Positions 42,213-47,136 of a stretch of DNA of 64,000 bases are shown piece by piece; the first letter of the stretch is position 1, and each line of letters starts with the position of its first letter. The notes below the pieces were generated by a model that saw nothing but the letters and a program-made list of their open reading frames with translations, was not told the DNA's origin and ran no database searches. A program made the position numbers and the translations under genes. The stretch covers positions 248,001 through 312,000 of the forward strand of contig NW_025954979.1 of NCBI RefSeq assembly GCF_022376445.1. Reading direction: 5' to 3'. The DNA comes from Fomitopsis serialis (taxonomy: Eukaryota; Basidiomycota; Agaricomycetes; Polyporales; Fomitopsidaceae).

Positions 42213-45200
42213 ATGTCTCAATCGCTAACTGGCGCTCCTCCACCATTCTTTGCAGACTCTGACGACGAAGATGGCACGAAAAATCACGCAAACGATGCGG
42301 ATACCCTTGAGGCACCGTCGAGCTCAGATACTAATGTACCACGGGAACCCGCACTCTTCTTCGCTGACAGTGACGACGAGGAAGAGAATGGAAACGCGCC
42401 TCTTCAGCTTCCTGGGATTGCACTTGACCATGCGATGGCAGACCTCTCCGATGACATAGATATTCCAGAACTGGACGAGCCTCCCAGAGCTTCGAGCGTT
42501 TCCAGCGCATCTTCTGGCGTCCACGAAGCCCAGACATATTCGCGCTCTCCCTCAGTGACAATCGAAGAGCAACCGGAGGAAAGACCAAAGAAGAAGCGAA
42601 AGCTGTCGCTGTCTAGCAATCAGGCACCTACGTCGTTCAATTCGTCTTACCTAGGCTCCTTTCTCGTGCCCAATGCTTGGAGCACTGTACGAGGGTCGGG
42701 ATATGTGAAGTCGGGCGACGAGGTTCGCATTGAACGAGACTCGCCTGAGGACGACACCCCTGCGAGCTCCAGGCAGACGAAGGGGAAGAGTGGCTCAAAC
42801 AAGGATGGCAAGAACAAGGCTGGCAAAAAGCAAATATCCATAGCCACGATGTTCAAGCCGCAGCCGGCAAATGCGACGAAGAAGAAAAAGGATTCGGTGG
42901 TCAGACTGACCAACATGAGGGGATTCGGTGAGGAGACAACGATTGTATCCTGCACTCAGCTAATAGGTGCTTAGAGTTCGGACGGTTGCCCCAGGACGTC
43001 GCATCTTGGGTATCAAAACTGCTGGATCTTGGTACGTCCGTTAACATGACCCATGTACTGAACTGCTCACGAACGTATATGCGAAGATATCGTTGACTTC
43101 CGCGGAAGCACGGTCGTCGATTGCCCTACTACACTCCACTCTGGTGCCGATCTCATCCTCTCCCTTTCTATCTACATCAAGGCTTCCGCCTTCCGCGCAC
43201 CGAGCACATCCGCAGAGGATCAACAGAAGGAGCGCGTAATGTTTGACGAAGGAAAAGAAACCGGGGAGGAGCAGATGCTTCGGGAGCGGAAGCAGGCATT
43301 ACTCAAAATGTTCAAGGTGCTTGACCTCAAGCCTCGGAAAGGAAGTGACTTCACACGGAAACCCCATGGTAAGCTAGACCAGATGGACCTGGAAATGCTC
43401 TCGCAGAGACATGTGGCGAACGAAAAGTCCAAGCCCAAAAAGGAGACCGAACTTGTCGGTGACGGCGAGGAGGTGGAAGTCGAAGAGGAGGGCGAGGAGC
43501 TGTCTGACAATGAGCTTGACCTCATTTACAAGAGGTACTGTACGAATTGTAGATCCATTGAAGTACAAAATGCTGATCAATGCTACTCAGGGCACAGCAG
43601 AACGATCGACAGCTGGGACAGATGGAGCCAGCCGACACCTTCACTTTGACCCTACGAGGTTACCAGAAGCAGGCACTTAAGTAAGCGGTCAGTTGCAACA
43701 TTTGTGTACGTTCGCTGATATTGTTGCCGCCTCAGCTGGATGCATTCCATCGAGACAGGCGTCACGTCCGCACGTGAAGAGACTTCAATGCATCCTCTAT
43801 GGAAGGAGTAAGTTGTATGCATCTGACTAGATCAATATGCCTAGCTGACGGTGCTTAGATATCTATTCCCACTTGAACCTAATAACGGAGTCATCGACTT
43901 GACTGCGGATGACAGAGCGTTCTACTTCAACGAGTATTCTGGCGAATTGAGCTTACAGTTCCCGAAGGCGGAAAGGAAGTGTAGAGGAGGTATCCTTGCG
44001 TACGTCTGCTTACTCACGCGACCAGTGTTCACGCTAACAAGACCTGCAGTGATGGTAATGTACTCTTGCTGCTTATGTCCGTGTCACTGCTAACCGACGC
44101 CACGACGTCTCGATTATCGCAGAGAGTATGTGCCATGTCAGGACTAAACATTACTGTGCTGACTATACATCAGTGGGCATGGGCAAGACTATCATGCTTT
44201 CTGCCCTGATGCAAACCTCTCGAGGACCCGAAGACCCCGCCCCGGATAGCAACGCCAACGCCAGCAAAAAGCGACAGCTCAAGCTCAACAACGCCTTCCG
44301 CTCCGTCAAGCACGATCCAAACACACAACCCGAGCGTGGGCCAGCGGCAACGTTAATCGTCGCACCAACCTCTCTGCTACTGCAGTGGTCCTCCGAACTG
44401 GAAAGATCGAGTAAGCCAGGGACACTGAAGGTCTTGGTGTGGCATAGCCAGAACAGGACAGACTTGGATGCCGCGTTGAGCGGACACAATCCGGTCGACG
44501 TAGTGATCACCTCTTACGGGACGCTAGTGTCGGAACATTCTAAGTCGGAACGATCAAACGGTAGCGGTACTTCGCCGGTCTTCGAAAGTAAGTATCGTCA
44601 TTGATCTGAATGCTACCATCTCTCATTAAGTTGTTGCAAGTTGAATGGCTTCGTAGGTCATGATATCATGTGCTCGTTCTTGCAGGCTGAGATCTGCGTA
44701 CAGGTGTTGTTCTCGACGAAGCTCACCACTGTAAGTCACGGCAGAGCAAGACCGCCAAAGCAGTATATGCTCTTCGTGCGCGACGGCGATGGGCTGCCAC
44801 AGGAACGCCTATCGTCAACAGATTAGAGGACCTCTACTCGTTACTGTTTGTGATCTTTGTTTGCCACTTTTCTACAGCGCTTACGCGCCCCCAGCAAATT
44901 CTTGGACTTTACGCCGTGGTCAAACTACACTTTCTTCCGCTCGTACGTAACGCCGTATCATGGTCCGGGGGAATAGTGATAACAGCTCGTCAGGTTTATC
45001 ACCTTGCCCTTCCTTGCTCGGGATCCCAAGGCAGTCGAGGTAGTACAAGTAATCCTCGAGAGTGTTTTGTTGCGCAGAGAGAAGAACATGCTCGACACAG
45101 ATGGAAAGAAGATTGTCGAACTTCCTCCGAAAGAGGTAAGTTGACCCGCGCATGGACGTGACTTCGAACTTAACTGCAGACGGCTTAGATTGTCGTGGAG

Positions 45201-46725
45201 AACTTGGAATTCTCGCCGCTGGAACGGAAGATCTACGACTCATTGTATACGGATGCTAAGAAGAACTTCGATAACCTGATTGAGAAGGGGCTTGTCAGCA
45301 GAAACTACACACACATCTTGGCCATGCTTATGCGGTAAGTGATCCGAGAGTATTGAGGACGAGGTGTGACTCAGATCTGTTACGGCAGGCTACGCCGTGC
45401 GGTTCTGCACCCCAATCTCGTGCTTTCTAGTGACAACGAGGGGATAAAGGCATCGAGTGCGGGAGCAGTGGACGTGGATGCTCTCATCAAGCAGTTCGAC
45501 GAGGGCAACAACTCGCCGAGCGACAACAAGGTCTTCGCCGAGGGCGTACTCGCGAACCTAGAGGGAGAAGAAGAGAGGGAGTGTCCAATATGTTTCGATG
45601 TCATGGACACGCCTACTATCATACCAAACTGCCTGCACCAGAGGTGCGTTGAACATTAAGTGTAGGTGTAAATTCCTGACGCCGTTTGCAGCTGCAAGGA
45701 TTGCATCATCGCATTCATCGAGACTTGTCGAGAGAAGGGTGAGGAGGGGCGATGTCCGACGTGCTCCCGCGGCCCTGTCAAGGTTTGCGATGCCGACCAC
45801 CCGTATCGACCCATTCCTGACCATACACTCCAGGAGAGCGATCTCATCGAGGTTGTTCGATCGAAAACGCAAGCTGAAGGCAAAGAGCCGCAAGCATCGC
45901 GTCCAGCGGTCACGTTGCGACGCAACGACTTCCGATCCTCGACTAAGCTCGAAGCCCTGCTGCAGAATCTCAGTGAGTGCGACTCTGTTATTCACTGCGC
46001 AGTCTAACAATCGCCACCAGAACGCCTGCAAAGCGAAGACTCGTCTTTCCGTGCGGTCGTCTTTTCTCAATTCACGAGCTTCCTCGACTTGATACAAACC
46101 ATCTTGGAACGAGAGGGTCTGGCATGGTACCGGTTCGATGGTACCATGGATGTCAAGAAGCGAAACGATTCCATCGCGGGCTTCAAGGCTGCTTCTCAGG
46201 CTCCGAAAGTTCTGATTGTGAGCTTGAAAGCAGGAGGCGTCGGTCTCAACGTGAGTGATCAATTCCAAGCTGTCTATCCGGGTCTCATCGAATGCATCGC
46301 CAGTTGACGAACGCCAACCATGTCTTCATGGTATGTGTTTGAAAGACATCAGTGCCTTGTGGTTTCTGACACAGTGATTCATTCCTAGATGGACTGTTGG
46401 TGGAATGCAGCCACTGAGAACCAGGGTGAATAGATTTGTGTTGTGTCTTGGTTTGTTGTCATTAACATCGCGTTCAGCCATCGATCGCGTCCACCGCATC
46501 GGACAGGAGAAACCAGTCTACGTCAAGCACTTCATCGTGAGTGGTTGTTTGATGTCATGTGTCTCGCCGCGGTTGCTCAACGTGCTCCAGATCTCGGATA
46601 CCATCGAAGGCCGTATCTTGCAGATACAAAAGCGCAAGACTGCCATCGTGAAGGAAGCATTCCGCGGCAAAAGAGAGGGGGATCCGGAAAGTGTTGAGAA
46701 TCTCAAGATCATGTTTGATATCTAG
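42213..46725 (+). CDS. RAD5: RAD5: SNF2 ATPase and RING E3 ligase of the post-replication repair pathway
   Basis: Polyubiquitinates PCNA and reverses stalled forks. ATG at 42213 gives [28 protein letters not shown] recurs about 37 residues on. The HIRAN domain starts [20 protein letters not shown], with a PIP-like QISIATMF inside it. The SNF2 core reads [44 protein letters not shown], Walker [65 protein letters not shown] and [18 protein letters not shown]. The RING is [20 protein letters not shown]...SCKDC...GRCPTC. The helicase C domain has [57 protein letters not shown]. Stop at 46723-46725. Exons of 5, 3 and 12 bases (44050-44054, 44123-44125, 44641-44652) are required for the motifs. Confidence 0.95.
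44050..44054 (+). other. 5-base microexon in RAD5
   Basis: TGATG between GCAG (44046-44049) and GTAATG (44055). The preceding intron (44000-44049, GTACGT...CAG) has a GCTAAC branch site. Supplies the last base of Ala plus Asp and the first base of Glu of ADEMGMGKT. Confidence 0.85.
44123..44125 (+). other. 3-base microexon in RAD5
   Basis: AGA between CGCAG (44118-44122) and GTATGT (44126). The preceding intron has GCTAAC, the following one (44126-44173) ACTAAAC and GCTGAC. Supplies AG of Glu and A of Met in DEMGMGKT. Confidence 0.8.
44641..44652 (+). other. 12-base microexon in RAD5
   Basis: Between intron 44588-44640 (GTAAGT...CAAG) and intron 44653-44703 (GTAGGT...ACAG). Gives [14 protein letters not shown] in frame. 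Confidence 0.75.
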
Positions 46726-47044: not shown

Positions 47045-47136
47045 TGACAAGAGCGAGATTCGAACCGCGCCCTTTCGGACTGGATTGCTTTCATGTGACC
47101 TGATTCCAGCGCCTTAGACCGCTCGGCCATCTTGCC
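47045..47136 (-). tRNA. tRNA-Leu (anticodon CAG), with intron
   Basis: Read on the minus strand from 47136. The acceptor GGCAAGA pairs with TCTTGTC, the D-arm is GCC-loop-GGC with AGCGGTC, and the anticodon stem CTGGA pairs with TCCAG. The loop reads ATCAGG with anticodon CAG. A 13-base intron TCACATGAAAGCA sits after the purine 3' of the anticodon, the canonical site. A variable arm and the T-loop TTCGAAT follow, with discriminator A at 47045. The 5' T-stem is GCGG where GCGGG is needed to pair with CTCGC; one missing G in a run explains it and matches the single-base losses in nearby genes. CCA is not encoded, as usual in eukaryotes. Confidence 0.92.

Follow-up and report, generated by a model that had tools for sequence, protein, structure and literature searches.

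How would a gene encode part of a conserved ATP-binding loop through two adjacent exons, one of five bases and one of three, and by what route would exons this short be kept in the message? The question is raised by a RAD5 gene in a 64,000-nucleotide stretch of Fomitopsis serialis DNA (the window; C101:248001-312000), for which a sequence-only reading had proposed two consecutive microexons inside the Walker A motif. We followed this proposal through the splice sites of the gene, through the protein models of its relatives and through other SNF2 genes of the same genome.

The RAD5 gene and its splice path

In the finished splice model the introns of RAD5 are 47-68 nt long, with a median of 52. 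The gene and the parts of it that are needed here are the following.

42213..46725, + strand: RAD5 gene, coding part (splice model with 22 exons, 21 introns and 1135 aa)
43859..43999, + strand: upstream exon of the splice path, ending ...GGT ATC CTT GC in phase 2; its end is TATCCTTGC, then GTACGT
44000..44049, + strand: intron 6, 50 nt, GTACGT...CTGCAG, with a branch-like CTAAC at -16
44050..44054, + strand: 5-nt microexon TGATG, between CTGCAG and GTAATG (only splice path found, shuffle control, leave-out prediction)
44055..44122, + strand: intron 7, 68 nt, GTAATG...TCGCAG, with a branch-like CTAAC at -33
44123..44125, + strand: 3-nt microexon AGA, between TCGCAG and GTATGT (only splice path found, shuffles, leave-out prediction)
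44126..44173, + strand: intron 8, 48 nt, GTATGT...CATCAG, with a branch-like CTGAC at -15
44174..44587, + strand: downstream exon, starting TG GGC ATG GGC AAG ACT, with CATCAG before TGGGC (splice path, gene model)
44641..44652, + strand: 12-nt exon (VFE-IEWL-R; splice model), overlooked by the deposited model of F. serialis
44846..44894, + strand: intron, 49 nt (splice model)
45783..45833, + strand: intron, 51 nt, absent from a 1152-aa version of the protein and present in the 1135-aa model

The codon pattern for a Walker A stretch without interruption is GATGAGATGGGC. Here 174 nt separate GGTATCCTTGC from TGGGCATGGGC, over three times the length of the median intron. Once spliced, the product has motif I as GGILADEMGMGKT and motif II as VVLDEAHH, both intact, and AGA completes the Glu codon with two bases and opens the Met codon with one.

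When all paths from GT or GC to AG were enumerated between 43960 and 44200, allowing at most four introns and none shorter than 20 nt, exactly one path encoded GGILADEMGMGKT, and it uses the introns 44000-44049, 44055-44122 and 44126-44173. In dinucleotide shuffles of 44000-44173, for which only GT donors were allowed, any motif-encoding path appeared in 7 of 20,000, in 2 of 20,000 when introns had to be at least 40 nt long, and in 0 of 20,000 when a plausible donor pattern was required as well. The microexon path is not a product of chance. A toy gene finder that is blind to the motif, and whose splice matrices were made from the other 18 RAD5 introns with the three microexon introns left out, picked all three introns at each of the four penalties tried. 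Overall it recovered 18 of the 21 introns and added 3-4 false ones, and we regard it as support and not as an independent test because its codon table was derived from the same gene.

Two adjacent microexons of 5 and 3 nt, as proposed, are borne out by this single motif-encoding path, and the junctions and the GT-AG introns with donors GTACGT, GTAATG and GTATGT are all as the sequence-only reading had given them. Its CTAAC-like branch sites hold for introns 6 and 7, but in intron 8 the likelier site is the CTGAC at -15 and not the ACTAAAC near -30. It had also held that any skipping breaks the frame. This is true of TGATG, whether left out alone or together with AGA, as the frame is then shifted and a stop follows 24 codons on, but it is not true of AGA alone, without which the frame is kept and the product reads ILADVGMGKT.

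That the two exons lie in the Walker A region of a RAD5 protein is supported by the domains as well as by the spliced motif. In the 1152-aa version, Pfam places HIRAN at 154-284, SNF2 at 431-822, RING at 876-921 and Helicase_C at 982-1097. The protein combines HIRAN, SNF2 and Helicase_C with a RING between the helicase halves, as proteins of the RAD5/HLTF family do. The solved structure most similar to the product in a PDB search is Rad5 6l8n (E 3e-133), and K. lactis Rad5, a match of the PDB search, retains the motif as GGILADEMGLGKT. Pfam, the PDB search and the first search for relatives were all run with the 1152-aa query, which includes 17 residues read through the intron at 45783-45833. 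Budding yeast can live without RAD5, and we do not keep the earlier description of this gene as an essential repair ATPase.

RAD5 is a single match in the assembly (66 Mb, 806 contigs), and a search across the assembly for a second RAD5 allele found none beyond the gene itself. Several SNF2 matches are paired with identical scores, for example on contigs C165/C568 and C179/C43, while RAD5 matches once; the duplicate SNF2 matches suggest that parts of two haplotypes are present in the assembly. Downstream of the gene, a stretch at ~47045-47136 on the - strand resembles by eye an intron-containing tRNA gene, although ARAGORN, with the settings used, called no tRNA gene in the window.

The Walker A motif in relatives and in other SNF2 genes

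Among the matches listed, the closest protein is P0001, the deposited model of Fomitopsis serialis (Polyporales), which is identical to the spliced product in 917 of 934 alignment columns. All 17 differing columns fall at the microexon site and the 12-nt exon. Where the Walker A motif should be, P0001 has part of intron 8 in translation, and its first residue lies 212 residues downstream of the start of the window model.

Relatives were taken as the best 120 of 6816 matches together with the best 120 of 189, giving 158 distinct RAD5-like proteins. We split those listed into 149 genome-derived models and 9 transcript-like proteins, the latter being those with the source labels lgn or jgi only. 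Eight of the nine lie on contigs of 3.4-4.2 kb, which are too short for the introns of the gene, and the status of the ninth, P0052, is less certain on its 15-kb contig. Motif patterns and pairwise alignment were used for the comparison, a 120-protein multiple alignment having misplaced the Glu column.

The Walker A motif is intact in 22 of the 149 listed genome-derived models and broken, altered or missing in 127 (~85%), where P0079 (ADEMGMGK followed by an insertion) and shortened models such as P0068 are counted as not intact. The same listed models keep motif II in 148/149 cases, motif III in 146/149 and motif V in 140/149. With looser anchors, GILA and GxGKT within 60 residues, 122 listed genome models could be compared, and the stretch between the anchors is intact in 22 of them. 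Among the transcript-like listed relatives, ADEMGMGKT is found in 9/9 and ADV in 0/9. Exactly ADVGMGKT, an in-frame loss of three bases, stands in 28 of the 149 listed genome-derived models, and models with ADVGMGKT include those of Trametes gibbosa, Sanghuangporus baumii and Ramaria rubella. A pipeline that loses the three bases flanked by two introns would be expected to give this reading. When the patterns for motifs Ia and VI are made stricter, they miss 131 and 102 of the 149 listed genome models and 6 and 3 of the 9 transcript-like proteins, respectively, and because they miss many of both kinds, only comparisons at conserved places count.

Pairwise alignment to the first 112 listed genome models gives a similar picture at the level of exon junctions. 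Survival is 30-32 of 111 at the microexon junctions and 88-100% at the other 18 RAD5 junctions, among them those of the 12-nt exon with 99/112 and 101/112. This criterion is laxer than the exact motif, which is present in 18/112 of these first listed models. The junction test also fails at variable exon midpoints, where survival ranges from 1/83 to 112/112, so it is meaningful at conserved places only, Walker A among them.

A direct comparison is offered by the transcript-like P0097 and by P0107, an Armillaria fumosa model, which share 95% identity across 1158 columns, only one of them a gap, and which read ILADEMGMGKT and ILAYVGMGKT, respectively, at the same Walker A place. Among Suillus species some models have the motif intact and others have ADV or a garbled form, a pattern that points to annotation failure rather than biology. 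The genera with a failed motif belong to what we take to be Polyporales, Agaricales, Boletales, Russulales, Gloeophyllales, Hymenochaetales, Thelephorales and Phallomycetidae. These protein models probably reflect an old 3-nt exon that is widely shared in the Agaricomycetes. The Asp is missing too in 40 of the first 112 listed models, which suggests, less strongly than for the shared 3-nt exon, that the upstream intron, the one that creates the 5-nt exon, is present in many species. The 22 intact models among the 149 would owe their motif either to RNA support or to intron loss. A RAD5 Walker A motif broken in ~85% of the listed genome-derived models would lead astray domain calls, structure prediction and any conclusion that catalysis has been lost.

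Within the same genome, 20 of the 21 SNF2 loci L009-L029 were scanned with a relaxed Walker A motif; the one set aside, L028, appears to be L017 a second time. At least one intron lies inside Walker A at 15 of the 20 loci, RAD5 included and with L016/L026 and L019/L020 looking like duplicate copies among them; three loci are uninterrupted and two gave no solution. A stricter motif pattern gave a solution at 8 of the 20. All of these are mechanical solutions and not curated gene models. Spurious solutions with 1- or 3-nt exons arise at loci that also have a simpler one (L014, L019, L022, L024 and L025), so a tiny exon from a mechanical search alone proves nothing. In the mechanical solutions, L019 and L020 share with RAD5 the phase-2 intron position between GC and T, and Walker A exons of 11 nt and 23 nt are found at L024 and L015, respectively.

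For one further gene, RAD26-like (ERCC6L2-like), the single mechanical solution that spells the Walker A motif GDDMGLGKT (L030 2679-2785) requires a one-base exon.

L030 position 2734 (G000:C113, locus start 428500): candidate one-base exon G, in the order GGTTTG, 55-nt intron, G, 51-nt intron, GTAAGACC

Shuffles of this locus gave some path in 282 of 20,000 and a path with a plausible donor in 77 of 20,000, so chance is not negligible here. GD(D/E)M is present in 104 of the 112 listed genome-derived relatives, and just after it 47 of these 104 are broken and 57 are intact. With a looser pattern, motif II is found in 110/112 of the listed genome models and in 8/8 of the transcript-like ones (a stricter motif II pattern, which was too strict, found 85/120), and the Walker A motif is intact in 8/8 transcript-like listed relatives. 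A second SNF2 gene seems to need a one-base exon in Walker A, as a candidate, which suggests that such exons may be commoner in these fungi than the listed papers show.

How the two exons may be spliced

Both RAD5 exons are internal, no longer than 15 nt and bounded by their own AG and GT, which is the structure of ultra-short coding microexons. They are not the zero-length exons of recursive splice sites, as 3 and 5 nt separate AG from GT, but their sites may still act like a recursive splice site. The claim that they are too short for exon definition is supported.

The explanation that we favor, at a probability of roughly 0.86 for the whole of it, combines several steps with the old and shared 3-nt exon. 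TGATG and AGA would be true coding exons of RAD5 that are mainly included. They would not themselves be recognized as exons but would be left over once three very short introns, of 50, 68 and 48 nt, are out, the splice sites pairing across introns (intron definition). The introns would then be removed in turn, much as in recursive splicing, in an order that we infer. All three are short and equipped with a separate donor, branch-like site and acceptor, which suits pairing across introns. Sites 3-5 nt apart are unlikely to be occupied jointly, so sequential removal is probable.

Intron 7 speaks against this explanation, as its acceptor is poor and its branch-like site, at -33, is distant. It is also the longest of the 21 RAD5 introns, and its acceptor has the lowest score of the 21 (0.16, with matrices that were trained on the other 18 introns and favor those 18). 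Folding of the three introns, and of the stretch of intron 7 that runs from immediately behind the branch-like site to the acceptor, gave no case for a hairpin that draws the branch site close to the acceptor. The folding z was -0.05 for that stretch and 0.96, 0.22 and -1.49 for introns 6, 7 and 8, respectively; for intron 8, 19 of 200 shuffles fold equally well, which is a weak tendency at most.

In a stwintron, an inner intron interrupts a splice signal of an outer intron. Nested splicing of this type, in which the two short stretches would survive through strictly ordered removal, is improbable here, even if it heads the alternatives. Sites 3 and 5 nt apart make simultaneous assembly unlikely, as nested splicing would have it, and one-after-another removal has been published for a one-base exon (PMC4674806). 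However, all three introns are of roughly ordinary length and each is complete in GT, branch-like site and AG, which leaves no signal interrupted, and there is a single splice path.

Next in order, and likewise improbable, is a regulated in-frame cassette, in which skipping of the 3-nt exon would alter the ATP-binding loop to ILADVGMGKT and leave HIRAN and RING unchanged. Such a cassette would draw on the preserved frame, on the low acceptor score of the preceding intron and on the 28 of 149 listed genome-derived models with exactly ADVGMGKT. Pipelines with no means of placing a 3-nt exon would, however, arrive at ADV in any case, and both the transcript-like listed relatives, with ADEMGMGKT in all nine and ADV in none, and the Suillus species, with their intact, ADV and garbled versions, argue against it. 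More doubtful again is the further idea of an in-frame switch, in which inclusion would give an ATPase-competent RAD5 (ADEMGMGKT) and skipping would give ADVGMGKT; if it were true, mushrooms could shift the balance of fork remodeling and ubiquitin ligation by splicing three bases.

It is very unlikely that the region leaves as one or two longer introns, with a true protein that lacks DE or has other residues in its place. P0001 does read other residues at the microexon site, but longer introns would change a motif that is kept in K. lactis Rad5 and in all nine transcript-like listed relatives, and skipping of both exons leads to the frameshift and early stop described above. Least probable of all is an assembly error or a pseudogene: as a single match in the assembly the gene has no allele to be compared with, but its 1135-aa frame is open through 22 exons and the models of listed relatives fail at the same point.

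On the favored explanation, with both exons included and the introns removed in sequence, adjacent exons totaling eight bases would be carried by a gene that is found once in the assembly, and the 3-nt member is seemingly common to mushroom-forming fungi. If so shared, it offers a natural comparative set for how the spliceosome handles sites three bases apart.

Comparison with known ultra-short exons

Ultra-short exons are already published, including one-base exons and adjacent microexons (PMC4674806, PMC12940212, PMC8831610). Contrary to what had been claimed, a 3-nt exon is not near the lower limit, one-base exons having been described in Arabidopsis APC11 (PMC4674806) and Fusarium CYP621A (PMC12940212). 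Among the open-licence PMC matches listed, there is no report of the RAD5 microexon pair, of a widespread 3-nt RAD5 exon or of the resulting Walker A misannotation, and no survey of exons this short in Agaricomycetes. Where the word 'microexon' appears in PMC4014442 and PMC3990503, it is an aligner setting only, and fungal microexons have been termed little characterized (PMC11121469).

For the one-base exon of Arabidopsis APC11, intron definition with recursive, one-after-another removal has been proposed, so the recognition of such exons, which the sequence-only reading had called an open question, has a published proposal (PMC4674806). According to the same paper, a 3-nt exon had been characterized before the APC11 case (PMC4674806). 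RAD5 resembles APC11 in having an ultra-short coding exon that was earlier misannotated; unlike APC11, with its single 1-nt plant exon that was tested in vivo (PMC4674806), it is a fungal ATPase gene whose two neighboring exons, 5 and 3 nt long, are known from sequence.

The one-base exon of Fusarium CYP621A, which is supported by 18 SRA reads, is closer in that it is fungal, was found because a conserved motif could not otherwise be spelled, and was hidden in an over-long apparent intron (139 nt in CYP621A), although it is a single microexon in an ascomycete P450 (PMC12940212). Adjacent microexons of 5 and 12 nt occur in one rice transcript, and plant microexons are, as in RAD5, conserved and missing from annotations (PMC8831610). 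Unlike the RAD5 pair, with 8 nt in total, these are from plants, and 'fungi' and 'basidiomycet-' are absent from the main text of that paper (PMC8831610). The Trichoderma virens Xlr2 gene has a microexon in a filamentous fungus, as does RAD5, but there it is a regulated isoform switch in an ascomycete (PMC11121469). The P450 genes of Phanerochaete chrysosporium, a white-rot basidiomycete, have frequent introns of 45-55 bp and many tiny exons, noted in 2005; unlike the single-copy repair gene RAD5, they form a multigene family, and their shortest exon is 6 bp (PMC1184071).

The PRP-40-dependent microexons of worm and mouse are likewise too small for exon definition and handled by intron definition, but they are mostly neuronal and alternative and have conventional introns, unlike those of RAD5 (PMC8378409). 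FF-domain genes, which are candidate Prp40 homologues, gave three matches at two places in the F. serialis genome. In the worm, a microexon was freed from PRP-40 once its long upstream flanking intron was replaced by one of 58 nt, and the three RAD5 introns at the microexons, with 48-68 nt, come close to the 49-58 nt given for PRP-40-independent microexons (PMC8378409).
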